Source of the DNA: an uncultured Arenicella sp. | GTDB taxonomy: Bacteria > Pseudomonadota > Gammaproteobacteria > Arenicellales > Arenicellaceae | Assembly (NCBI GenBank): GCA_937922925.1 | Contig: CALAKU010000002.1 | Location: 62,001 to 126,000, forward strand | Length of the DNA stretch: 64,000 nt | Reading direction: 5' to 3' | Shown here: positions 17,381 through 45,953 of the stretch, one piece after another | How the letters are laid out: the number at the start of each line of letters is the position of its first letter | Position numbering within the stretch: the stretch's first letter is position 1 | The notes under the pieces: model-generated | The model's input: the letters and a program-made list of their open reading frames with translations, nothing else | Databases searched by the model: none | Told to the model about the DNA's origin: nothing | Program-made: the position numbers and the translations under genes

Positions 17381-18925
17381 TTAGGCTTCGCTGGTGAGTT
17401 GATTTGCCAGCAGTAATATTTCTTCTATTTCTACTGGCTTAGTTAAATAGGCTGCACATCCATACTGCTGCGCTTGCAATCGATCTTCGCTGAGATTTGA
17501 CGCACTCATGACAGCAACCGGTACGGTATTACCGCCTTTTTGCATGGCCTCCATAGCCTGATAACCATCCATTACGGGCATGTGCAAATCCATTAGTATG
17601 AGATCAAACTGTTCGTGTTCTGACGCTTCAAGTGCAAGCGCCCCATTGCTTACGTGTGTGACTTCAATGTTTTGCTCATCTAGCAGCATCACCAGTAAAT
17701 CGGCGATATCGCTATCGTCTTCGGCCAGCAGCACTTTCAATTGATCAATGTCAATCGACGGCTCAGGCATGGCAAGCGCTTCGGCTTCAAGTAATGGCAT
17801 GGGCAGTTCAAATGACACCTGTGTGCCTTGATGCAACTCTGAACGGATCACCAGTTCACCTCCCATGAGCTCAATCAGACCTTCGGTGATTGTTAAGCCC
17901 AAACCGGTGCCCGCTTTACCTGTATCCGCAACCTGAAAAAACGGGATACGGATTTTGGCGAGATTATCTTTGCTAATGCCTTCGCCGGTATCGATGACTT
18001 CGATGCTTAATAGCTCGCGATTTAGCTCGGCCTTTAAGGTCACCGAGCCTTTGTCGGTAAACTTGACGGCATTCCCGACAATGTTTAACAGACATTGACG
18101 CAATCGACTGTCGTCGGCAATCACCATGCAGCCTGGTTCAAAATTAGTTTGAAGAGTAAACTCAACGTTCTTGGTGCCGGCTAAGGGGCTCAACAATAAG
18201 CGGATATCATCAAACACCTCATGCAGATCGCAAGGCTTAGGCCGAATCACAATTTGATCGGCATCGAGCTTTCCATGATCCAGCAAGTTTTCCACCAGAC
18301 TCAGAATGTGTTTGCTCGATCTTTTCACAGCTCGCAAATAGGATCGGCAATTTGCATAGGCCTCAGGATTTTTATCAGGGTTATGAGTTTCACGCTCTAG
18401 AAGGTTGGTGTAACCAATGATCGAGCTTAAAGGCGTTCTAAACTCATGTGACACGCCAGATAAAAAACTGTTCTGTAGTCGGGCCGCTTCACGCAGCGCC
18501 TCGTTCTTACCTTCCAGTTCTTTGGAGGCTTGCTCAAGTCGATGAGTTAGTATGCGTTGCTGGCGTAAGAGAAGCTCATTTTCATTGGCTTTTTGCTGCA
18601 ACAGCTGACGTTGTTCAGCTAGATGAGATGCGTTTGAGAAAACAATCGCCAAACCTCTTTTAGACGGTATCAAATTTACCGCGACGGTGATGCCTGAGGG
18701 GCTTTCGACGAGTGGCAAATCTACTCGGGTTGATGCATCAAACCCCACCATAAAATCGACATAATCTTCGACTTCGCAACCTAAAGGAATCTCTGGGTAG
18801 CCATAAAGGGTAAGGCCGTCTGATACTTCGACAACCTTTAAGTTTTTATCGGTGTACAAATAAGCCAAATCCCACTTATCGTAGAGTTGCTTATTTATGT
18901 GTTTTTGCAGAGAAAGGGCCGCCAT
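17381..18925 (-). CDS. Hybrid sensor histidine kinase with C-terminal receiver
   Basis: 514 residues, no membrane segment, so cytoplasmic. A PAS-like N-terminus (about 15-100, with YTDKNLKVVEVSDGLTLYGY) leads into a coiled coil (102-150), a DHp domain with H160 in VSHEFRTPLSSIIGYT, an ATPase domain (N box N285 in NIVGNAVKFT, DTGEGI at 312-317, GTGLGLTI at 339-346) and a receiver with D446 in LILMDLHMP and K496. The signal is unknown. Downstream Hpt and upstream GTPase, membrane and coiled-coil genes suggest a four-step phosphorelay coupled to the GTPase module. Confidence 0.93.
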   Translation of the reverse strand: MAALSLQKHINKQLYDKWDLAYLYTDKNLKVVEVSDGLTLYGYPEIPLGCEVEDYVDFMVGFDASTRVDLPLVESPSGITVAVNLIPSKRGLAIVFSNASHLAEQRQLLQQKANENELLLRQQRILTHRLEQASKELEGKNEALREAARLQNSFLSGVSHEFRTPLSSIIGYTNLLERETHNPDKNPEAYANCRSYLRAVKRSSKHILSLVENLLDHGKLDADQIVIRPKPCDLHEVFDDIRLLLSPLAGTKNVEFTLQTNFEPGCMVIADDSRLRQCLLNIVGNAVKFTDKGSVTLKAELNRELLSIEVIDTGEGISKDNLAKIRIPFFQVADTGKAGTGLGLTITEGLIELMGGELVIRSELHQGTQVSFELPMPLLEAEALAMPEPSIDIDQLKVLLAEDDSDIADLLVMLLDEQNIEVTHVSNGALALEASEHEQFDLILMDLHMPVMDGYQAMEAMQKGGNTVPVAVMSASNLSEDRLQAQQYGCAAYLTKPVEIEEILLLANQLTSEA

Positions 18926-18986
18926 CGTTGATTACCTAATCTTGTTTTTTAAAACACACTCAAGGGATGCTGTGGTCAAACCGAAC

Positions 18987-19463
18987 TCACTGTATAAGCC
19001 GACAAAGTTGAGTAAACAACCCTTCGACCTCGACCCCCTCTTTTGCACTGGTTTCAAAAACAATCCAACCTCTTTCTTTTAGTGACTGGATTTGCTCAGG
19101 GGTCACTGACCACTCTGGCAAATCTCGCTTATTTAAGGCAACGACCGTCGGCACTTTACCTATTCTTTTTTCAACGGTGTCCCATATGCTGTGTAAATCA
19201 TCAACGGTTTCAGGGCGCGTTCCGTCAGCAACTAAAGCGATGCCTGACGCGCCAACCAAGTAACTTAGGTTGATTGGGGAGAGAGAATCACGCCCTGCAA
19301 CATCCCAAACTATTAACTTGGTTTCATCAACAATTGCAGTATCGATCTTAACGCCGATCGTCGTCAGATACTGTTCGGAGAAAACATTGTTTACAAATTT
19401 TTGCGTTAGGCTTGTTTTGCCGACTGAAAAATCACCGACCATGCAGACTTTTTTCTTATCCAT
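18987..19463 (-). CDS. Rab/Ras-like small GTPase
   Basis: 158 residues of a compact Ras-superfamily G domain. G1 is GDFSVGKTS (10-18), the switch I threonine lies in YLTTIGVKI (32-40), G3 is WDVAGRDS (53-60), G4 is NKRD (111-114) and G5 is ETSAKEG (137-143). The layout, including WDxAGxD, resembles eukaryotic Rab and bacterial Rab-like proteins much more than Era/EngA GTPases. The residue matching catalytic Gln61 of Ras is R58, suggesting slow intrinsic hydrolysis or an unusual activation mode. There is no C-terminal lipid-anchor cysteine motif. It lies 5 bp after the gene for the 508-residue membrane protein and likely works with it. Confidence 0.92.
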   Translation of the reverse strand: MDKKKVCMVGDFSVGKTSLTQKFVNNVFSEQYLTTIGVKIDTAIVDETKLIVWDVAGRDSLSPINLSYLVGASGIALVADGTRPETVDDLHSIWDTVEKRIGKVPTVVALNKRDLPEWSVTPEQIQSLKERGWIVFETSAKEGVEVEGLFTQLCRLIQ

Positions 19464-19468
19464 AGAGC

Positions 19469-20995
19469 TTAACTTTCTGACTTTAGAGGACGGGGCTGGA
19501 CATTGAGACGAACCCAGTCACTGTTGGCAAACATCACTTGTAATATGGTCAAGCTCTGAATATCCAATTGGCCGCCTACGACCAACACAGACTGTTCATC
19601 AACGACTAGGCTGCTCATTTTCAATCTGGCCAAATCCTCTTTACTAAAACTTTGCTCAAGTAAGTCTGACACCGACTCATAAGAAGGGCTTAACTGAGAG
19701 ATATTAAGGCGTCGATCAGCGGCGAGCTGTCGAATTCGATTGTTATTGTGTTGTAGCCAAAGAAATGGGGCCTCTCCATATAAATAAATGGAACCTTCTC
19801 GCTCCGATAAGTACACGCCCGAAGGAAGCTCTAGTTCTTCGGTAAAACGCTGCAATTCCATGCCGACTTCTAATGAACGAAAAGGAATGGTGCGAAGGTC
19901 AATTTGAGACTCCGAGATACCGTAGCTTTCAAGCGTTGCAAATGGGATTTTGGCATCGGGGTCACGCAAACCCTGAACGACAATTTTGTCATCCTCCCAA
20001 AACAAGTGGGTAGTGGCTATGCCAGGCTGGTTATCGAGCAAATGATTAGCGGTGTCTAGTAAGGTTTTTCGCTCAAACCAATGGTAGCCGACGAATAATA
20101 AGACGGCAGCGAGTATCAAGAACGGCCATAAGGGAACCTTACTTTTACGCGCGGCTTGCTTCTCATCAATGTCTTTTAATCGCACTTGCAGGAGATTACT
20201 CATGGCAAGATCGGCGCCATCAAACGAACTTGAATCGCCTTGGAAACGGGCGATTTCTATCGAATAGTCCGTTCGTATTTGATCTAAGGTGTCGTATAAA
20301 TCTTGTTTCAATGCCTCAGGCGCATCCCCAGTGATAACGCAAGCGAGCATAGTTTGAGCGCCATGAGCAACCCAAACATTGTATTCACCTACTTTTAAGT
20401 CGGTTAAGCGCGAATCGTTGCCTGCGGTAAATGAATCCTGCACGAAGGATTGAATGGCACTAAACATCGCGCCAATGGCATCGGAATCGAGTGTTTGCGT
20501 GTCGCTGGAGCTGATCTCTTTAATTAACAGCCCAGTGTCTCGATGGATAAGGTAAACGTGCTCTACTCGGTAAACCAACGATTGGCGCAGAGCCAGCTCA
20601 GCGTAGGGCACTCCAGTTCGCCAAGACTGCATGCGTAGCTTCCAAGCACTGACGGAGGTCGCCGAGTCGATCGACCGATTAATCGTTAATAACAACGAAG
20701 AAATAGCTTGCGAGATGGCGCGCCGAATAGAAGGCGCCATAACCGGATATAGAATCTCTGCGTATTCTGCTGGCTCAGTGCGAATGGCTTGCTTTAACGA
20801 ACGAGATACGGGCTCTTTGAACGACTCTACTAAACGATCGCCACCACTGGCTAATTCTTTATCAATCGCAGGCGACAGAACCTCAGCCACATCATTGGTT
20901 CGATGTTCAAGGCTCTCAATACGATTTTTAAGATCGGCCAGTTGATCGGCGTTACCACCAACAATAATGCGCCGCAATTCATCTAGTTGACTCAT
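19469..20995 (-). CDS. Membrane-anchored 508-residue protein of the GTPase locus
   Basis: One central membrane helix (about 288-305, PLWPFLILAAVLLFVGYHWF) divides the protein. The cytoplasm-facing part (1-285) has a charged helical N-terminus and a domain at about 140-235 (VEHVYLIHRDTGLLIKEISS, AIQSFVQDSF, GEYNVWVAHGAQTMLACVI) that recalls the roadblock/longin folds used by bacterial and eukaryotic proteins to bind small GTPases. The other side (306-508) may hold small BON- or OmpA-like alpha/beta repeats. I recognise the pattern only loosely; no firm family name can be given. Tight spacing with the GTPase gene (5 bp) suggests it is the GTPase partner or membrane platform. Confidence 0.85.
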   Translation of the reverse strand: MSQLDELRRIIVGGNADQLADLKNRIESLEHRTNDVAEVLSPAIDKELASGGDRLVESFKEPVSRSLKQAIRTEPAEYAEILYPVMAPSIRRAISQAISSLLLTINRSIDSATSVSAWKLRMQSWRTGVPYAELALRQSLVYRVEHVYLIHRDTGLLIKEISSSDTQTLDSDAIGAMFSAIQSFVQDSFTAGNDSRLTDLKVGEYNVWVAHGAQTMLACVITGDAPEALKQDLYDTLDQIRTDYSIEIARFQGDSSSFDGADLAMSNLLQVRLKDIDEKQAARKSKVPLWPFLILAAVLLFVGYHWFERKTLLDTANHLLDNQPGIATTHLFWEDDKIVVQGLRDPDAKIPFATLESYGISESQIDLRTIPFRSLEVGMELQRFTEELELPSGVYLSEREGSIYLYGEAPFLWLQHNNNRIRQLAADRRLNISQLSPSYESVSDLLEQSFSKEDLARLKMSSLVVDEQSVLVVGGQLDIQSLTILQVMFANSDWVRLNVQPRPLKSES

Positions 20996-21039
20996 GACTG
21001 CTTAGTACGCCATTCAATCGTGCCTAAAAAAATCTACAA

Positions 21040-21579
21040 TTAACTGCTACGTAACTTTACCGCGACTTCATCCAGCATCAGCGCCAAGGTTTGGCGGCTA
21101 ACTTTGTCGGATTGTAATTCTTCGCGTTGCAGATTTAATTGCTTATTAAGTTCATCTTGCGCGACTTTAGATTGCCCGAGCAGTTCTTCATGACTCTCTT
21201 GCAGCGCCGCTTTCACCGCAGCCAAATCTTGATTTGCCTGATCTTCCATCAAAGAGATTGAATGCTGTAGCGTAGTGCGCGCATCCTCCAGCGTTTTATG
21301 CAGGGCATTCATCTCGGCGTCGCGCTTCTTTTGTTCTTGGCCAATCATTTTGTCCAAGCGCGATAAGGATTCATTGACGGCGTCGTCCATGCCCGCCATT
21401 TTCTCAGTTAAGCGATCCTTAATTTGCTCAACGTCTTGCTCTAAACGCGCTTCGAGTTGAGCAAAACGGTGCTCAAAGTCGCTTACGTATTTGCCGAATA
21501 AAATATCTCGGACTTTGTCTATTTCACCTAAGCCCGGGTTAATCACTTCGGCTTTACTTCGTTTTGTCGAGTCGTTCAT
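21040..21579 (-). CDS. Coiled-coil protein of the GTPase locus
   Basis: 179 residues, highly charged, no signal peptide or membrane segment. After a short head (VRDILFGKYVSDFEHRFAQLE at about 23-43) the rest is a continuous heptad-rich helix to about residue 170, so it probably forms a rod or oligomer. The head motif, a hydrophobic LFG followed by a charged helix, looks conserved. It lies between the OmpR-type regulator and the membrane protein gene and may link GTPase and membrane protein or act as a scaffold. Function unknown. Confidence 0.82.
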   Translation of the reverse strand: MNDSTKRSKAEVINPGLGEIDKVRDILFGKYVSDFEHRFAQLEARLEQDVEQIKDRLTEKMAGMDDAVNESLSRLDKMIGQEQKKRDAEMNALHKTLEDARTTLQHSISLMEDQANQDLAAVKAALQESHEELLGQSKVAQDELNKQLNLQREELQSDKVSRQTLALMLDEVAVKLRSS

Positions 21580-21592
21580 ACTGCACCTCTGC

Positions 21593-22282
21593 CTAGTTGA
21601 TTTGTTCTAAACGATAACCGTGTCTGTACACTGATATTAGTTGCCAATTTTCTTGTTTGTCTAACTCAAGCTTGGTACGCAAGCGGCTGATATGTGTATC
21701 AACCGTTCGCGTATTCAATTTAGCACTAGTGCCCCACACCATTTCAAGCAAATGGCCTCGGGAAATCACCCTACCTAAATTTTTAAACAAAAACAAAGCC
21801 AACTCATATTCTTTTTGAGTCATTTCGACATGCTCATCGTTATAGAACATGCGCCGTAACTTTGTATCGATTTTGTACGGAGGAAAGTCGTAGGCGTCCG
21901 ACGTATTTTCATCGCCGAAACCCATGCGTCGAGCAATAGCATTTACCCGCGCCATCGTCTCTGCTTCACGTACAGGTTTGGTCATGTAGTCGTCGGCCCC
22001 GGCTTCCAAGGCCGCAACAATGTCTTGTTCTGCGTCGCGTTGAGTAATAAACACCACCGGCACCACCGCATCAAGATGAGCTCTGAGATGGGCTAACACT
22101 TCTATCCCAGAAACTTTTGGTACATTCCAGTCGAGTAAGACGAGGTCAAAACTGTCTTGCTTGTACGCTCTTATAAAACTATTGCCGTCTTTGTAGACAG
22201 CGCATTGGTGACCGGCCTCTTCTAACCAGGCAACTAGCAGGTCTGCCTGATCTTGATCGTCCTCTAAGATTACAATTCTCAT
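21593..22282 (-). CDS. OmpR/PhoB-family response regulator
   Basis: 229 residues: receiver domain 1-120 with D51 in LLDWNVP, acidic pocket EDD at 7-9, K102 in MTKPV; and a winged-helix DNA-binding domain at about 130-228 (EMTQKEYELALFLFKN, VDTHISRLRTKLE, YRHGYRLE). First gene of the six-gene minus-strand locus, 13 bp before the coiled-coil gene. It is the likely output of the kinase-Hpt relay encoded downstream. No recognition site could be identified in its own upstream region. Confidence 0.94.
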   Translation of the reverse strand: MRIVILEDDQDQADLLVAWLEEAGHQCAVYKDGNSFIRAYKQDSFDLVLLDWNVPKVSGIEVLAHLRAHLDAVVPVVFITQRDAEQDIVAALEAGADDYMTKPVREAETMARVNAIARRMGFGDENTSDAYDFPPYKIDTKLRRMFYNDEHVEMTQKEYELALFLFKNLGRVISRGHLLEMVWGTSAKLNTRTVDTHISRLRTKLELDKQENWQLISVYRHGYRLEQIN

Positions 22283-39235: not shown

Positions 39236-39306
39236 ACCTAGGATAGTAATACCAAGGATAGTAGTCAGTGGCACCTAGGATAACCTAGGATAATAGTTCT
39301 AGGATT
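39236..39306. repeat. Repeats of CCTAGGATA between convergent genes
   Basis: CCTAGGATA or a close variant occurs five to six times with spacings of 9-25 bp between the TauE gene and cinA. No stable terminator-like hairpin is evident; it is one of the local repeat arrays. Confidence 0.7.
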
Positions 39307-40579
39307 TTTTACGCTTTAGCTCGGCGAAATAATCAACCGAGGTAGGCAAACCCATGACCTCTCGACGGAGTAAGTCCATTGCGATAGCCGTTGCCGTTCG
39401 TTGAAAGGCTAAGCGCGGCATGGGTAGGAAAAAACGCCGTGCACTCGGCGATTCAAGGCTTCCCCACGCCATCCAAACCGTCCCCACCGGTTTGTCAGGG
39501 CTGCCACCTTTTGGCCCGGCGATACCAGATATGGCCAAACCGACATCGGCTTGCGTTCGCTGCAAAGCGCCGTTTAGCATTTCTCTGACGGTGGCTTCGC
39601 TGACCGCACCATGATCATTTAGTGTGTCTTCGCTCACGCCAAGTAGTGATTTTTTCATTGCATTGGAATAAACCACAAAGCCACCATCAAAAACGTCGGA
39701 AGCGCCAGATTCACTGGTAACGCCAGCCGCAATTGCGCCACCTGTGCAGGATTCGGCCGTCACGAGGCGTTTATTGGCGGCCAGCAATGCGCGATTTAAA
39801 GCCTGTGATAGACGAGTATTGTCTTTACCAATTACATAATCGGAGAACAAAGACGCAACCTTCGCCGACCACCGCTGATTCAAGGCGTCAAACTCTTCGC
39901 CAAGTGTTCTAAGCTTGACTTCGATTACTGGCATTTGCACTCGAAACCCAAGTTCAACCTCGTTTGGCCAATCAGGAAACTGTTTATCGATAATGTCTTG
40001 CAGACCCGACTCGGTAATACCAAAAAGCCGCAGCCGCGTGATCATTCCCTTATCACTTAGGTTCCCGTGATTACGAATCAGTGGCAACAGCTGTTCCTGC
40101 ACCATTCGTTTTAACTCGCTAGGCACGCCTGGCGTGCACATCACCAGACACTTGCCATGCAGACAATGAAAGCCGACTGCGGAACCCACGGGATTCTCAA
40201 TAATCTCGCAACCTTGTGGCAACTGGGCTTGAGTCAAATTCGATTGCGTAATGGTAAACCCGCGTTGCTCGGCCCATTGCTCTAGGTGCGCCAATGCCTT
40301 TGGATGCTGTTCCAACGGGGTTTGCATCGCCTCAGCCAAAGCTTGAGCGGTCAAATCATCTTGCGTTGGGCCTAGGCCCCCATTAATGATGAGCACATCG
40401 GATTCGCGGGCCAAACCATTAATCGCATCAATTAAAAGACGTTTATCATCGCCAACCACCAACTTCTTAAATGGCATTACGCCTAGGTCTTTCAATGCCT
40501 GTGAAAGCAGCGACGAATTACTATCAACGGTATCTCCCGACATGAGTTCATTGCCGGTGAGTAAGTAGCTTATTTTCAT
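39299..40579 (-). CDS. cinA: CinA/PncC competence-damage protein (NMN deamidase type)
   Basis: 426 residues: N-terminal MoaB/Mog-like domain (about 1-170, INGGLGPTQDDLTAQALA), a short linker, and a C-terminal CinA domain (about 255-415, TAESCTGGAIAAGVTSESGA, GIAGPKGGSPDKPVGTVWMAW). The CinA domain in such proteins deamidates nicotinamide mononucleotide in the pyridine nucleotide cycle; the N-terminal part in full-length forms acts as an ADP-ribose pyrophosphatase in some species. No recA neighbour. Confidence 0.95.
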   Translation of the reverse strand: MKISYLLTGNELMSGDTVDSNSSLLSQALKDLGVMPFKKLVVGDDKRLLIDAINGLARESDVLIINGGLGPTQDDLTAQALAEAMQTPLEQHPKALAHLEQWAEQRGFTITQSNLTQAQLPQGCEIIENPVGSAVGFHCLHGKCLVMCTPGVPSELKRMVQEQLLPLIRNHGNLSDKGMITRLRLFGITESGLQDIIDKQFPDWPNEVELGFRVQMPVIEVKLRTLGEEFDALNQRWSAKVASLFSDYVIGKDNTRLSQALNRALLAANKRLVTAESCTGGAIAAGVTSESGASDVFDGGFVVYSNAMKKSLLGVSEDTLNDHGAVSEATVREMLNGALQRTQADVGLAISGIAGPKGGSPDKPVGTVWMAWGSLESPSARRFFLPMPRLAFQRTATAIAMDLLRREVMGLPTSVDYFAELKRKKS

Positions 40580-40736: not shown

Positions 40737-41609
40737 CTAATCATCGTCAAGTAAAAGAAGGATAATAGGCGCAACTTGAAAATCAGATCTCACCGGCACA
40801 GCGGAAATTTGCCCTTGAAGGAAATCGCTAAACCAAGTTTCAGCGATGACTAAATAACCTGGATCGGTAGGATGCAGTTGATCGGGGTCTAACAAGCTTA
40901 AGAACCCGCCCGGCTCATTGATAAAACGCGCGTGTAAATCCACTTTGTCGGCATTTCTATTGGCTATAGCGGAATTAATCGCAGCATTGTATTCAGCCAG
41001 ATTTTGCGACTGACCTTGGCTGACGCCCGGCGCTCGCGGGATTAAGGTCGACACAATAGGTACGTAATTTTGGCTTCGAGCGATATCGATCATGACTTCA
41101 ATATTCGCGCGTGTTACATCCGACGATATTCCAAAATTAAAGTCATTGGTGCCATACAAAATCAGGGCAAACTTTTGTTGCGCTGCGATAGTGCTTGCTG
41201 CGGAACTAAGATCACCGCTCATACGCTGCACTCCGGCCATTGAGCTAGACCCACCATTACCCCAGTTTTGCACGATGGCATTGGCTTGCATCTCATTGCT
41301 ATCGCGAATAGTCGAATCGCCCTCAACAACTCGACACTCGTCTGGCGGGCCATCGTCTCGGTCTTCTTGCTTGTTTAAAATATTGGCTAAGTAAATCGCC
41401 GGGCACCCCCGATCGGTGCGACCATTGCCAACACTGTCACTAAAACGATTACTGAGGTTTCCGTTAAACCCATGACTAATGCTATCGCCGAACAGCACTA
41501 CTAGCGATAAATCGGCTTCCTGCGATTGAGCTGTCATTGTAGTCGCCACGCAAGCGATAAGCGCCAAAACCAGTGTGAGTGCTTTTGTTTGCCTAGCCAA
41601 GAAATTCAT
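40737..41609 (-). CDS. Secreted SGNH/GDSL hydrolase (copy 3)
   Basis: 290 residues. A signal peptide (about 1-30, LVLALIACVATTMTAQSQ) indicates export. SGNH blocks: LFGDSISHGFNG with catalytic S43, block II N/G at NWGNGGSS, block III GTND at 153-156, and block V D243 and H246 in DPDQLHPTDPGY. It ends VAPIILLLLDDD, a hydrophobic-acidic tail shared in pattern with the two other SGNH proteins nearby. Substrate unknown; likely a lipase/esterase or deacetylase. The start ATG overlaps the stop of the propeller gene upstream by one base. Confidence 0.92.
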   Translation of the reverse strand: MNFLARQTKALTLVLALIACVATTMTAQSQEADLSLVVLFGDSISHGFNGNLSNRFSDSVGNGRTDRGCPAIYLANILNKQEDRDDGPPDECRVVEGDSTIRDSNEMQANAIVQNWGNGGSSSMAGVQRMSGDLSSAASTIAAQQKFALILYGTNDFNFGISSDVTRANIEVMIDIARSQNYVPIVSTLIPRAPGVSQGQSQNLAEYNAAINSAIANRNADKVDLHARFINEPGGFLSLLDPDQLHPTDPGYLVIAETWFSDFLQGQISAVPVRSDFQVAPIILLLLDDD

Positions 41610-42463
41610 TAGCGTTCATTCAATCTTATAGATTGCGACAATTCATTGTTTGGGAAAAATAGAGTAACTGGTAAATCATCAGGCGCAAAGTTCGGTAGCG
41701 TGATGTCGCCAAGCGTTAATTCAGCGCTCTCTGAGATTGTTGATTCAAAAATATTTGGCGCTTGGTCTGCACTAGTTGGCAAAGAGGAGACATCAGTTGC
41801 TATAAAAGGCGCTTTTGATATTTCTAGAGTAGCGAAATCTAATTGCCTGGAAACTGTTTCGTAACGCAAGGCTTGTTTATTAAGTTGCTGCCACGATACG
41901 CGGGCTTGGGTTTGAGAGATAAGGTCTACTTGCGGCCTGAAATCGGGCACCTCATTGGGCGTATTAACGCGGCTGATATCTGACCAACCCGCCCCTTCAG
42001 ATTGGTTCATCATTATCACGTCGGTCTTGCCACTCAAGGACGAATCCCAAAATAACCACGCTCCATAGAGCCGTGAGTAAACAATAACTGGGTTCATATT
42101 AGAACCACCTTGATCAAATAAACTGCGCGCTTTCGACCAAGTAGACGTGCGTAAATCAAAGAAGGCACTTTTTAAATCGACTCTGCCCGAATCCCGCTCA
42201 CTCCAAACCGCTGCAATGGTGTATTGATTTAACTTGCCAAGAGTCGAGGTTGCAATCGCGTGGTCTGTTTCAACGATCACCTCGGGCTCTTGCCACTGAT
42301 CATCGATCAAAATAGATACCATTACTCGATTCAAACCAGACGTTTGCTGCTTCCAAGTTAACATGGCTTGCGGCCCAGACTGAGCGATTACCTTGCCAGC
42401 CAGCCCCATTGTTGCAAACAACAAGATGCTATAAAGGAATCCTTGTCTCACAGAACGCATCAT
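41609..42463 (-). CDS. Secreted predicted beta-propeller protein (copy B)
   Basis: 284 residues with a signal peptide (about 1-30). The body shows repeated W/F-rich strands with Asp-box-like and W(S/K)xA motifs (AAVWSERDSGRVDLKSAFFD, STWSKARSLFDQGGSNMNP) suggesting a six- or seven-bladed sialidase-like propeller; no catalytic motif is identifiable. It ends with the block LGDITLPNF, APDD, FFPNNELSQSIRL. Homologous to the product at 43527-44306. Function unknown; pairing with the next SGNH gene suggests a shared task, e.g. substrate or surface binding. Confidence 0.85.
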   Translation of the reverse strand: MMRSVRQGFLYSILLFATMGLAGKVIAQSGPQAMLTWKQQTSGLNRVMVSILIDDQWQEPEVIVETDHAIATSTLGKLNQYTIAAVWSERDSGRVDLKSAFFDLRTSTWSKARSLFDQGGSNMNPVIVYSRLYGAWLFWDSSLSGKTDVIMMNQSEGAGWSDISRVNTPNEVPDFRPQVDLISQTQARVSWQQLNKQALRYETVSRQLDFATLEISKAPFIATDVSSLPTSADQAPNIFESTISESAELTLGDITLPNFAPDDLPVTLFFPNNELSQSIRLNER

Positions 42464-42488
42464 CGGAAATGGTTACTCTATTGGTCTT

Positions 42489-43523
42489 CTAGTCTTCGTT
42501 AAGCAGAAAATTGATCACCGGCACCAACACTGTGTCAGCCGACAAAGAGCCAGTCACTGGCACGGCGTCGCGCAAAAACAAATCAAACCAACGTTCAGCC
42601 AAAAACAAATAACCTTGGTCGGTCGGATGAATCCTCAACCGATTTCCGGAATTGGTGGTCTCCAACCGCATAAGCTGAGGCCAACCGCCAGGAAAGTTAA
42701 CAAACTCGGCGAACAAGTCCACCATAACGAGTTGTGGATCAGCCGCCGCAAGCTGGCGAATTTGATCGTTTATTGTAAACACTCGTGAATCGATCACGTT
42801 ACTGGCGTCGCTACGCGGCAGAATGGTAGTGATAATCGGTTGAAAACCGGCGCGCGAGCGCGTGAGGCGCACAATCTCTTGCAAATTAAAGCGAGTCGTT
42901 GAGGTTCCGATTCCGTTGTTGATGTCATTGGTTCCGTAATTGATCAAGGAAAACCGACGAGTGGCGTCAGGAAATTGATTTCTCGACTGAGTCAAATTTG
43001 CGACAACGCGGCTGACTCCATTGGATGAATCTGAACTGGTCACGCCCCAATTAACAACAACGGCATCACGAATCTCGCGGCTACGCGCATTGGCATCAAG
43101 CACCGGAGAATTTAGATTAGCGGTTGGGCATTCTTGACCGGCTTGGCGCTCTGTTTCGTTGCGGAGCATGTGCCCAAGATAAATATCAGGGCAGCCCAAA
43201 TTAGTATTACCATTACCGTTAAGAGGGCCTGGGACACCGATTTGGAAGCCAACACTGATGCTGTCACCATAGAGCGCAATCAGAGCGCCTGCATCAGCCT
43301 CTGTGGATTGTTGTGCTAAAGATGTAGATGAATAGGAAAGTAGGCAAAGAAACGTAAAGCCTTTAGCCAGTAAAGAGCCTTTAGCCAATGAAGAGCCCTT
43401 AGCTAATGAAGAGCCCTTAGCCAATGAAGAGCCCTTAGCCAATAAAAAGTCTTTAGCTGACAAAAGGCAAAAGCCATTGGCTAGCACCTTTTTAAACCTC
43501 TGCTTGTTATAAGAAGCGAACAT
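42489..43523 (-). CDS. Secreted SGNH/GDSL hydrolase (copy 2) with repeat-expanded signal peptide
   Basis: 344 residues. The signal peptide is unusual: a basic head (MFASYNKQRFKKVLANG) is followed by five copies of the six-residue unit (S/L)LAKGS (about 27-56) before the hydrophobic core FTFLCLLSYSSTSLAQ. SGNH blocks: YGDSISVGF with S88, NWGVTSSDSS (block II), YGTNDINNG (block III), HPTDQGY with the catalytic H (block V). The C-terminus is LVPVINFLLNED. Otherwise like the other two SGNH copies; substrate unknown. Confidence 0.9.
   Translation of the reverse strand: MFASYNKQRFKKVLANGFCLLSAKDFLLAKGSSLAKGSSLAKGSSLAKGSLLAKGFTFLCLLSYSSTSLAQQSTEADAGALIALYGDSISVGFQIGVPGPLNGNGNTNLGCPDIYLGHMLRNETERQAGQECPTANLNSPVLDANARSREIRDAVVVNWGVTSSDSSNGVSRVVANLTQSRNQFPDATRRFSLINYGTNDINNGIGTSTTRFNLQEIVRLTRSRAGFQPIITTILPRSDASNVIDSRVFTINDQIRQLAAADPQLVMVDLFAEFVNFPGGWPQLMRLETTNSGNRLRIHPTDQGYLFLAERWFDLFLRDAVPVTGSLSADTVLVPVINFLLNED
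43359..43448. repeat. In-frame 18-bp tandem repeat in an SGNH gene
   Basis: On the plus strand TTAGCCAATGAAGAGCCC (and TTAGCTAATGAAGAGCCC, TTTAGCCAGTAAAGAGCC) repeats about five times with few differences. Codons stay in frame, adding Lys/Ser/Gly-rich LAKGS(S) copies to the N-region of the signal peptide. Confidence 0.85.
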
Positions 43524-43526
43524 GCT

Positions 43527-44306
43527 CTAGTCTAAGCGTATCGCTTGTGCAGCTTGATTAGTGGGAAACAGCAGTGAGACAGCTGAATCGCGCGGTAAAT
43601 AGTCGGGCAAGGTTATATCCTCTAACTTCATATCTGCTTTGGCTTTGCTTAACCATTGCGAGTCAGCTGGCTCGGTGGCAATCACTTTTCGCGCCTCGAT
43701 ATACTGCCCAGACAGAAAATCATAGGTTTGCCAACGCACCAAAATATCCCCAAACTCGTCAAGCTCAGCAACGGGCCGATAGTCGGGAACCTCGTTAGGA
43801 TCATTGAGCTGAACTTTCTCAGACCACTGGTTCTCATCAAGGCGGCGCGTCTTATAGAAAACGTCGTCTAAACCACCATCGTTACCCGACCAAAACATCC
43901 ACAATGTGCCTCGCCCGTCATTAACTAAATTGGGGTTTAGATTCTCAACGCCATCTTCAATCAAGGGCTCGGCCTTACTCCATTTGCCGCTGTTACCATT
44001 TCTAGATGACTGGTATATCTGTGATTTGCCCTTGTCGAATTCGCTCCAAACAGCCAATGTTGTTGATGTCGAGAGCTTGACCAAGGTCGGTGTAACAATT
44101 TGATTCTCAGAACGGTAAATTATTTCTGGTTCGCTCCAAATCGCATCAGAGCCTTTACCAGATAATGAGGTCGACACCAAGTTATGTTCGCCATTAAAGG
44201 CTGACCAAATCAAAACAGCTTGGGTCTCTTGTGCATAAGCCAAGGTTGAAACCAAGCTTACGTTTAGCGAGATACTCAGCAAGAAAAAAAAGCGTAGAGG
44301 CTGCAT
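43527..44306 (-). CDS. Secreted predicted beta-propeller protein (copy A)
   Basis: 259 residues from ATG 44306, which begins a proper signal peptide (MQPLRFFFLLSISLNVSLVS, then TLAYA). An open frame extends further upstream to 44420 but would overlap hflD without a signal sequence. The body has Asp-box-like repeats (AVWSEFDKGKSQIYQSSRNG, LWMFWSGNDGGLDDVFYKTR) and the NDPNEVPDYRPVAELD block shared with copy B (NTPNEVPDFRPQVDL). C-terminal block KLEDITLPDYLPRD, SLLFPTNQAAQAIRL. Four bp before the SGNH copy 2 gene. Function unknown. Confidence 0.85.
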   Translation of the reverse strand: MQPLRFFFLLSISLNVSLVSTLAYAQETQAVLIWSAFNGEHNLVSTSLSGKGSDAIWSEPEIIYRSENQIVTPTLVKLSTSTTLAVWSEFDKGKSQIYQSSRNGNSGKWSKAEPLIEDGVENLNPNLVNDGRGTLWMFWSGNDGGLDDVFYKTRRLDENQWSEKVQLNDPNEVPDYRPVAELDEFGDILVRWQTYDFLSGQYIEARKVIATEPADSQWLSKAKADMKLEDITLPDYLPRDSAVSLLFPTNQAAQAIRLD

Positions 44307-44329
44307 ATAAATGATGTCTGGCTGGTTAT

Positions 44330-44932
44330 TTAAACGTTTGCGCTTAAGGATTTGGCGGCATTTTGCATACGCGTTCGCTCCCAGATCAAACGAAAACGGT
44401 TGCCGCCTTTTTGCTGCCACAAAACGGCTGATCGGATACCCGCAAGCAGCATCCCTCGGATTCGATCGGGCACTCCGTCAGTTTGCAGGTGAACTTCTTC
44501 GCCTTGAACAATAATTCGCGGCGACAGTGGGCTGATAAACCTCTGATAAAGCTCAGAACATGCAGTGACAAAATCGTCTTCAGACACGCCAGATAAACGC
44601 TCTACTTCCTGAGCAAATTCAGCGAAGGTGTGTTGGTCTCGATACAGATTGGCCTGCAGTCGTAACAAACCATTTGCGTAGTTCAAGACTTCCAAATGCT
44701 GACTGGCAGTATTAACCAAAGCACCTGTGGCAATGGTTTCTAGGCCTGAACTCAATTCGCTTAAGCCTCCGTAAACCGAAGGAGTATTGACCGCATCTAA
44801 TACCGAAATAGATTTCAGTAAAGCGAGTTCTTCGCGCTCAATACAGGCGCCCGAACGCGCCAGCGACTGAACCGATGAGCACGCTTGTAGGATTGCCGCC
44901 AAGGCAATAGTTCTCTCGTCAAGCAGATTCAT
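44330..44932 (-). CDS. hflD: HflD-like protein (high-frequency lysogenisation regulator homologue)
   Basis: 200 residues from ATG 44932 (the frame is open to 44938 but only TTG lies there). The all-helical sequence with RTIALAAILQACSSVQSLAR, YGGLSELSSGLETIATG and AGIRSAVLWQQKGGNRFRLI is characteristic of HflD, a peripheral inner-membrane protein in gammaproteobacteria; in E. coli it binds lambda CII, and a general role in the cell is unclear. Usually hflD sits between mnmA and purB; here it is within a run of SGNH genes, an unusual location. Confidence 0.9.
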   Translation of the reverse strand: MNLLDERTIALAAILQACSSVQSLARSGACIEREELALLKSISVLDAVNTPSVYGGLSELSSGLETIATGALVNTASQHLEVLNYANGLLRLQANLYRDQHTFAEFAQEVERLSGVSEDDFVTACSELYQRFISPLSPRIIVQGEEVHLQTDGVPDRIRGMLLAGIRSAVLWQQKGGNRFRLIWERTRMQNAAKSLSANV

Positions 44933-45020
44933 TTTCAAGTCGTCAGCGTTTTACCAATTTACAACTGATTTAGACAAGAGCGTAGCAATGCGCATCAGCA
45001 GTGGACAATCGAACACTAAC

Positions 45021-45953
45021 TTATTCGTCCAACAAAAGATTGATAATCGGCGCTATGGTAATGTCTCGAATTGCCGGGATGGCGTCTTCCAAAAACTCAT
45101 CAAACCATCTCTCGGCCATTAATACATAGCCCTGATCGTTTGGATGAAGACGCGTAGTGACAATCACGCCCCCGCCAATACCAAAAGTTTCGATTGGTAA
45201 CAAGTTTGACGCGCCGCCCTGGCTACCGGCTCTACCGGCCAAACGAACGGCGCTACTTGGCGAACCGGGGAAATTCAAAAAGGCATTAAACATGTCGACA
45301 ACCGGCACATTTTGCGAGCTGCCAATTCCGCGGATAGCATTGGTCAAGGGTTCGGTATCAAAACCGGATCTTGGCAACAAGGTAGACAGTGCTGGCGTGT
45401 AACCTAAAGACCTCGCTTGTGAGACCATTCGGGTCAAATTAAACGACGTTTGACTCCTCGAAACACCCTGGCCGGGGTCATTGGTGCCGTAGTGAATTAG
45501 CACAAACCGTTGAGCGGCATTCGGGAAACGTGCCGATTGGTTATTCAAATCTCTGGCAAGACGGCCAACGCCAACGAATGTGGTCGAGCCTCCTTCGCCC
45601 CAATTTACGACTCTCGAGTTTCTAAACTGACGCTCCCGCTCGACTCTGTCTCTGACTGGGGTATTCAAAATAGTGGTTGGGCATGGCACTGGCGGCGGGC
45701 CAAAGTCTAGCGGTCTATCGCCTTCGTTGCGTAGGATGTTTCGCAAAAAAATAGGCGGGCACCCAAAGAACTCAAGGCCCATTCCATCAAACGCAGTAAA
45801 ACCGGTTGAAAACTGTACGCCCGTTATAATGCTGTCGCCAAACAGTGCGATTGATGATAGCGGTGTTTCATCCAAATTATCTACCGCCCAAGCTGGCTGG
45901 ATAAAACAAACCAAGATTAGGCAAATAGAAAGAAAGTTCCTAACTTTTCTCAT
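45021..45953 (-). CDS. Secreted SGNH/GDSL hydrolase (copy 1)
   Basis: 310 residues with a signal peptide (about 1-23, ending AWA). SGNH blocks: LFGDSIITGVQ with S41, block II NWGEGGSTTFV, YGTNDPGQG (block III), RLHPNDQGY with the catalytic His. It ends ITIAPIINLLLDE. Related to SGNH copies 2 and 3 but without a propeller gene directly upstream; hflD is downstream. Like them it is probably exported; substrate unknown. Confidence 0.91.
   Translation of the reverse strand: MRKVRNFLSICLILVCFIQPAWAVDNLDETPLSSIALFGDSIITGVQFSTGFTAFDGMGLEFFGCPPIFLRNILRNEGDRPLDFGPPPVPCPTTILNTPVRDRVERERQFRNSRVVNWGEGGSTTFVGVGRLARDLNNQSARFPNAAQRFVLIHYGTNDPGQGVSRSQTSFNLTRMVSQARSLGYTPALSTLLPRSGFDTEPLTNAIRGIGSSQNVPVVDMFNAFLNFPGSPSSAVRLAGRAGSQGGASNLLPIETFGIGGGVIVTTRLHPNDQGYVLMAERWFDEFLEDAIPAIRDITIAPIINLLLDE

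Follow-up and report, generated by a model that had tools for sequence, protein, structure and literature searches.

The catalytic domains of family CE2 carbohydrate esterases are associated with a carbohydrate-binding module (CBM), and loss of the aspartate of block V has been described in these enzymes (PMC9487903). Surface O-acyltransferases of the OafA/OafB type join an AT3 domain to an SGNH domain (PMC7448272), and the known CTERM tags of exported proteins combine a short motif with a transmembrane helix and basic residues (PMC3237569). Here we analyse a locus that invites comparison with all three systems, in a stretch of 64,000 nucleotides (the window) from an uncultured Arenicella sp. 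of the order Arenicellales (GenBank assembly GCA_937922925.1, contig CALAKU010000002.1, positions 62,001 to 126,000 of the forward strand). The genome assembly comprises 2.69 Mb in 104 contigs and is 87.6% complete. Reports of this marine genus come from algae and particles. The minus strand carries five open reading frames (ORFs), for three SGNH hydrolases (PF13472) and two small beta-propeller proteins. All are predicted to be exported, and together they would make up two copies of a two-gene module and an orphan SGNH hydrolase.

45021..45953, minus strand: SGNH3, predicted exported SGNH/GDSL hydrolase, 310 amino acids, no adjoining propeller (PF13472, E 1.6e-14; BLAST against SGNH2)
43527..44306, minus strand: propeller A, predicted exported small beta-propeller, 259 amino acids (AlphaFold model; genus relatives)
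42489..43523, minus strand: SGNH2, predicted exported SGNH/GDSL hydrolase, 344 amino acids, partner of propeller A (PF13472, E 2.3e-13)
41609..42463, minus strand: propeller B, predicted exported small beta-propeller, 284 amino acids (similarity to propeller A; profile match, E 2.5e-79)
40737..41609, minus strand: SGNH1, predicted exported SGNH/GDSL hydrolase, 290 amino acids, partner of propeller B, with the canonical DxxH (PF13472, E 1.3e-18)

These coordinates and the strand agree with a preliminary description made from the DNA letters, which had also noted the tight spacing within pairs. The gap between the end of propeller A and the start of SGNH2 is 3 nucleotides, the stop codon of propeller B overlaps the start of SGNH1 by 1 nucleotide (TAATG), and 25 nucleotides lie between SGNH2 and propeller B. 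All five proteins begin with a signal-peptide-like segment, which supports the earlier proposal of export; the route would be Sec. Three features were absent from that description: an hflD homolog between SGNH3 and propeller A, a tandem repeat in SGNH2, and a tail at the C-terminus of the SGNH proteins. Scans for promoters and terminators gave chance-level matches only.

The pairing of propeller and SGNH genes recurs in other genomes, as the preliminary description had anticipated. Among 18 genomes of the genus (the sampled genomes are mostly metagenome-assembled, and completeness is about 80% in G005 and G009, with 78% for G009), 15 have the propeller. Sixteen of the 18 propeller genes in the genus adjoin an SGNH ORF on the same strand in the fetched loci, which lies directly downstream in 15 cases and upstream in G007. 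In other families of the order, an SGNH gene is found directly downstream in five of six propeller loci, at low sequence identity. Because the adjacency is kept despite this divergence and in varied genomic surroundings, it provides good evidence that the two genes form a functional pair. A search of 369 genomes across the class found only distant propeller matches outside the genus (E 1e-7 to 1e-15). Most of these were to longer exported proteins that match at several places, which suggests that, within this sample, the small paired form is restricted to Arenicellales. Neither the propeller–SGNH pair nor the tail was described in the literature that we searched.

The SGNH proteins all pass the PF13472 cutoff of 32.9 bits (68.5, 51.5 and 55.2 bits for SGNH1, SGNH2 and SGNH3, respectively). 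In an alignment of 20 SGNH sequences the GDS, Gly, GTND and His blocks are invariant or nearly so; specifically, G25, D26, S27, G99, N138 and H238, representing blocks I, II, III and V, are invariant, consistent with catalytic activity. The block V aspartate, three residues before the histidine, occurs in SGNH1 and in 4 of the 19 others. SGNH2, SGNH3 and most Arenicella relatives have another residue in its place, next to an insertion ahead of the histidine. The structure model of SGNH1 is weak (predicted local distance difference test, pLDDT, 61) and was not used as evidence.

The propellers are more enigmatic. The preliminary description knew of no family for them, and indeed no Pfam family matches above its cutoff (GH43, 17.9 bits against 32.2; BNR_2, 16.2 against 31.4), nor does the NCBIfam beta_propeller_lectin model (14.4 bits against 200) or any sequence among solved structures (best E 0.11). 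The two sequence blocks that it had singled out, NEVPD(Y/F)RP and a terminal DITLP(D/N)(Y/F)xP...FPxN, are real and occur in both propellers. Four tryptophan-containing blade repeats, counted by eye, suggest a small propeller, and the AlphaFold model of propeller A (12 sequences) predicts this fold confidently, with a mean pLDDT of 86.6 and a predicted template modelling score (pTM) of 0.81. With VIA-align, the model matches sialidases, PLL lectins, GH93 enzymes and TolB over about 170–200 residues (Z about 13–16, maximum 15.8); Foldseek matches include GH43, and the KLHDC2 and clathrin propellers also appear among the fold matches (Foldseek/VIA-align). A fold common to so many proteins does not by itself give the modelled propeller a function. 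The propeller could itself be a GH43- or sialidase-type glycosidase or lyase, making the pair two enzymes for one polymer. Weak GH43 matches in three members (best E 0.0004, below cutoff), folds like those of GH33, GH43 and GH93, and the invariance of E89, D148 and D175 speak for this, the invariant positions of the 18-member propeller alignment being W87, E89, W109, W139, D148, N171, P174, D175, W192 and Y202. However, the sequence matches are sub-threshold, the propeller is much shorter than such enzymes, and the invariant acids would have to line one pocket; we regard a catalytic propeller as rather improbable.

The genes that flank the pair offer further clues to its function. From position 45953 down to 40737, the minus-strand order is SGNH3, hflD, propeller A, SGNH2, propeller B and SGNH1, with a cinA-like gene next in line.

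44330..44938, minus strand: hflD homolog (DUF489), conserved upstream of the pair and not a member of the module (PF04356, E 8e-47)
39299..40579, minus strand: gene that we take to be cinA-like from its sequence, conserved downstream flank (gene order in relatives)

Propeller A is counted here from an ATG; a longer frame starting at GTG would extend to 44420 and overlap hflD. The pair follows hflD in eight Arenicella genomes and is located elsewhere in the remaining ones. Relatives carry extra genes between the pair and the cinA-like gene, namely those for an exported protein that we call Z, an AT3 acyltransferase, and an SGNH-like protein, Y. The AT3 gene occupies this position in four genomes (G017, where the assignment was tested against Pfam, and G001, G008 and G013, 57–59% identical). 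Beside it in the same four genomes is Y, a protein of 440 amino acids with an N-terminal hydrophobic segment, 68–72% identical to Y of G017. In G016 and G010 an AT3 gene (42–43%) directly follows the pair, and in G003 an AT3–SGNH fusion (PF01757 and PF19040) is encoded two genes upstream of it. Together, the AT3 neighbours in these seven genomes may point to acylation of glycans.

We tentatively favour, at somewhat less than an even chance, the reading that the pair is a carbohydrate-esterase-like module, exported and divided over two proteins, whose target is an acylated glycan of the cell surface or the extracellular space. Each module would consist of a small propeller of the sialidase or lectin type, which binds the glycan, and an SGNH enzyme, either an acyl-ester hydrolase or an acyltransferase, which removes or moves an O-acyl group of that glycan, both exported by Sec. 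In such a carbohydrate esterase, a protein of its own would do the binding. The SGNH family match, the conserved blocks, the fold matches of the propeller, the pairing, the AT3 neighbours, an AT3 homolog on another contig of the window's genome and the lack of the block V aspartate in most Arenicella SGNH proteins are all consistent with such a module. Several observations weigh against it. No AT3 gene lies near the pair in G011, G012, G014 or the window's genome; two propellers of the genus and several SGNH proteins are unpaired; and the GH43 and BNR matches of the propeller fall far below the Pfam cutoffs. The role on a glycan suggested in the preliminary description is compatible with the neighbouring acyltransferases, but the glycan substrate is one that we infer, and a lipid substrate is open because the nearest NCBIfam models, all far below cutoff, include a TesA-like thioesterase/lysophospholipase beside an acetylxylan esterase. 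The SGNH protein might accordingly be an exported lipase, lysophospholipase or polyester esterase, with the propeller as a partner for assembly or stability rather than a glycan binder. Many small exported enzymes have dedicated partners, and 14 of the 20 SGNH members match PRK10528 (TesA/lysophospholipase), far below cutoff. The AT3 neighbours in seven genomes fit glycan acylation better, however, and the fold matches of the propeller include lectins and glycosidases; we consider a lipase-like pair unlikely, though a more serious contender than a catalytic propeller. If the split glycan esterase is real, it would be an esterase with a separate propeller recognition subunit, and would shed light on the handling of acylated glycans.

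Two kinds of genes near the pair in relatives deserve separate mention. Z is a predicted exported protein of 200 amino acids with no Pfam match, a start resembling FPxDFSDVVFIE and variants of the SGNH tail, often encoded near the pair (L048, 9930-10544, with homologs in G008, G014, G015, G002 and G004). A set of genes that looks, by eye, like a GtrA/GtrB-type glucosylation system, together with a large polytopic protein, lies beside the pair or an SGNH gene in two genomes (L042, 3176-6874; L056, 4062-7836); the polytopic protein of L056 has no Pfam match.

The preliminary description read the two pairs as a duplicated two-gene module. Propellers A and B are 32% identical (BLAST, E 1e-36) and join in the propeller tree (support 91/63), which favours this weakly. 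SGNH1 and SGNH2 are 35% identical (E 3e-48) and SGNH2 and SGNH3 37% identical (E 7e-57); in the SGNH tree, SGNH2 joins the orphan SGNH3 (99/94), which speaks against a clean joint duplication of the two genes, and SGNH1 falls elsewhere, in an unsupported position. A clade of SGNH1 and SGNH2 was not rejected at 0.05 in the topology test (approximately unbiased p value, p-AU, 0.069), nor was a clade of all three SGNH proteins (p-AU 0.21). Duplication of the whole module is possible.

The most unusual part of the locus is the tail, which is common to all three SGNH proteins and to nearly all SGNH proteins of the set. It is short (10–12 residues), hydrophobic and then acidic, with the consensus [V/I/L][A/S/T/V]P[I/V][I/L]xLLLx[D/E]. 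In the window it was located with the tail pattern and the sequence collection:

45021..45056, minus strand: tail of SGNH3, IAPIINLLLDE and stop codon
42489..42527, minus strand: tail of SGNH2, LVPVINFLLNED and stop codon
40737..40775, minus strand: tail of SGNH1, VAPIILLLLDDD and stop codon

Of 1537 six-frame ORFs with 60 or more amino acids, 22 match the tail pattern; they are SGNH proteins, members of the exported family Z, or a Z fragment. At the DNA level, the pattern P[IVM]xxLLLx[DE]-stop matched 27 times in the 18 genus genomes, compared with 4 matches of a reversed-pattern control; outside the genus it matched 6 times in 91 genomes, which is not above the control. A profile of the tail likewise matched in 16 genus genomes and in only 6 of the other 91 (E 0.3 or better), with 11 matches each in G014 and G015. 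Since the patterns were chosen after the motif had been seen in SGNH proteins, the independent part of this result consists of the non-SGNH matches and the reversed-pattern controls. When the last 25 residues are removed, 59 distinct tailed proteins fall into 19 unrelated clusters, which include subtilases, matrixins (M10), aspzincins (M35), GDSL esterases, beta-helix proteins and DUF4350 proteins. Signal-peptide-like N-termini, by a crude rule, occur in 42 of 46 tailed ORFs compared with 208 of 454 others.

The motif is not limited to C-termini: DUF1800 proteins carry it directly behind the signal peptide, and a few other proteins have it between domains. These internal and N-terminal copies make a strictly carboxyl-dependent tag unlikely, and the motif can probably do without a free carboxyl end. 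The DUF1800 examples are encoded at L215 (9329-11467), L234 (3662-5806) and L217 (2988-5138), one of them from another family of the order. An origin of the tail from a mobile DNA repeat was rejected because its codons vary freely, with all six leucine codons in use. The tail is unmatched in NCBIfam and Pfam: the NCBIfam CTERM models gave no match at E 1 or better in 10 diverse tailed proteins, or at E 0.1 or better in 20 SGNH proteins. No recurring machinery gene was found around tailed proteins, where gene clustering returned orthologous surroundings only.

The tail marks exported proteins across the genus, and its most likely job would be docking or retention (or export), mediated by a receptor; in the SGNH proteins it would dock, retain or export the enzyme in this way. 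The alternative, an SGNH terminus due to chance or to structure alone and without a shared function, is highly improbable. Hydrophobic C-termini do arise by chance, and the weak SGNH1 model does not allow the tail to be placed. Yet one motif on 19 clusters that are unrelated without it, the excess of pattern matches over the control, the 11 profile matches in each of two genomes and the enrichment of signal-peptide-like N-termini all argue for a shared role. A more specific proposal, which we consider possible and hold slightly more loosely than the split esterase, is an undescribed sorting or docking system of Arenicella in which a portable motif of about 12 residues on exported proteins, mostly C-terminal but at times directly behind the signal peptide or between domains, is recognized by a dedicated receptor, the pair being its most regular client or a component.

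The propeller itself might be that receptor, sorting tailed proteins in the periplasm or at the surface. Tail matches (E 0.3 or better) occur in 14 of the 15 genus genomes with a propeller, and the fold matches to the TolB, KLHDC2 and clathrin propellers offer an analogy, as TolB, Kelch and clathrin propellers bind short peptides. This co-occurrence tracks the genus, however, in counts that ignore kinship, and it partly counts the SGNH protein's own tail. Furthermore, G009 (78% complete) has tails and G006 a tail-like motif where no propeller was found, and a general receptor would need no constant SGNH neighbour. We therefore find a receptor role for the propeller very doubtful.

Two further observations concern repeats and signalling genes.

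43358..43457, minus strand: 18-bp tandem repeat at the 5' end of SGNH2 (Tandem Repeats Finder; pattern search)

The repeat encodes LAKGSS units ahead of the hydrophobic core of the SGNH2 signal peptide, which they lengthen. It is one site of a dispersed tandem-repeat family in Arenicella genomes, genic and intergenic, with the core GCTRAGGGCTCTT and variable spacers (periods of 17, 18 and 24 bp). Other sites are in G000 (contigs C27, C63, C95, C7 and C29; loci L220-L224) and G007 (contig C16; L058, 4892-4984), where the repeat is an in-frame insertion in a ferredoxin-like subunit whose counterpart in the window's genome has no repeat. Elsewhere in the window (17381-22282), a gene for a Ras-like small GTPase (PF00071, E 6e-25) adjoins genes for a hybrid histidine kinase, a 508-amino-acid protein without a Pfam match and a 229-amino-acid protein resembling a response regulator.

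In comparison with known systems, the propeller shares its predicted fold and tryptophan-rich blades with PLL-type lectins, GH33 sialidases and GH43 and GH93 enzymes, but it is at most about 18% identical to them, is predicted to form a smaller ring and matches no family model above cutoff. The CE2 acetyl-xylan esterases (PMC9487903) resemble the pair in their SGNH fold, in the frequent lack of the block V aspartate and in combining a catalytic domain with a binding part, which for the pair is putative. CE2 enzymes carry this part as an N-terminally fused CBM, whereas here it would be the propeller from a separate gene; the SGNH ORFs have no fused N-terminal CBM, and we found no CE2-specific match. 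The likeness to AT3–SGNH acyltransferases of the OafA/OafB type (PMC7448272) lies in the AT3 gene near the pair in seven genomes, the predicted extracytoplasmic SGNH protein and the theme of glycan acylation. Unlike in those enzymes, the SGNH protein here is separate and putatively exported, with a propeller and a tail and often no AT3 gene beside it, and a different protein, Y, adjoins the AT3 acyltransferase in four genomes. The tail, like the tags of the GlyGly-CTERM/rhombosortase, PEP-CTERM/exosortase and MYXO-CTERM systems (PMC3237569, PMC1569441, PMC11980579), is a short C-terminal homology region that marks exported proteins of unrelated kinds within a restricted lineage, at most about a dozen of them in each genome. 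It differs in having no transmembrane helix or basic cluster, with about nine hydrophobic residues and an acidic D/E end instead, in occurring also internally and after the signal peptide, and in having no known partner enzyme. If it is indeed a sorting or docking tag, it would represent a new class beside PEP-CTERM, GlyGly-CTERM and MYXO-CTERM, and the search for its receptor in Arenicella would be a concrete project.

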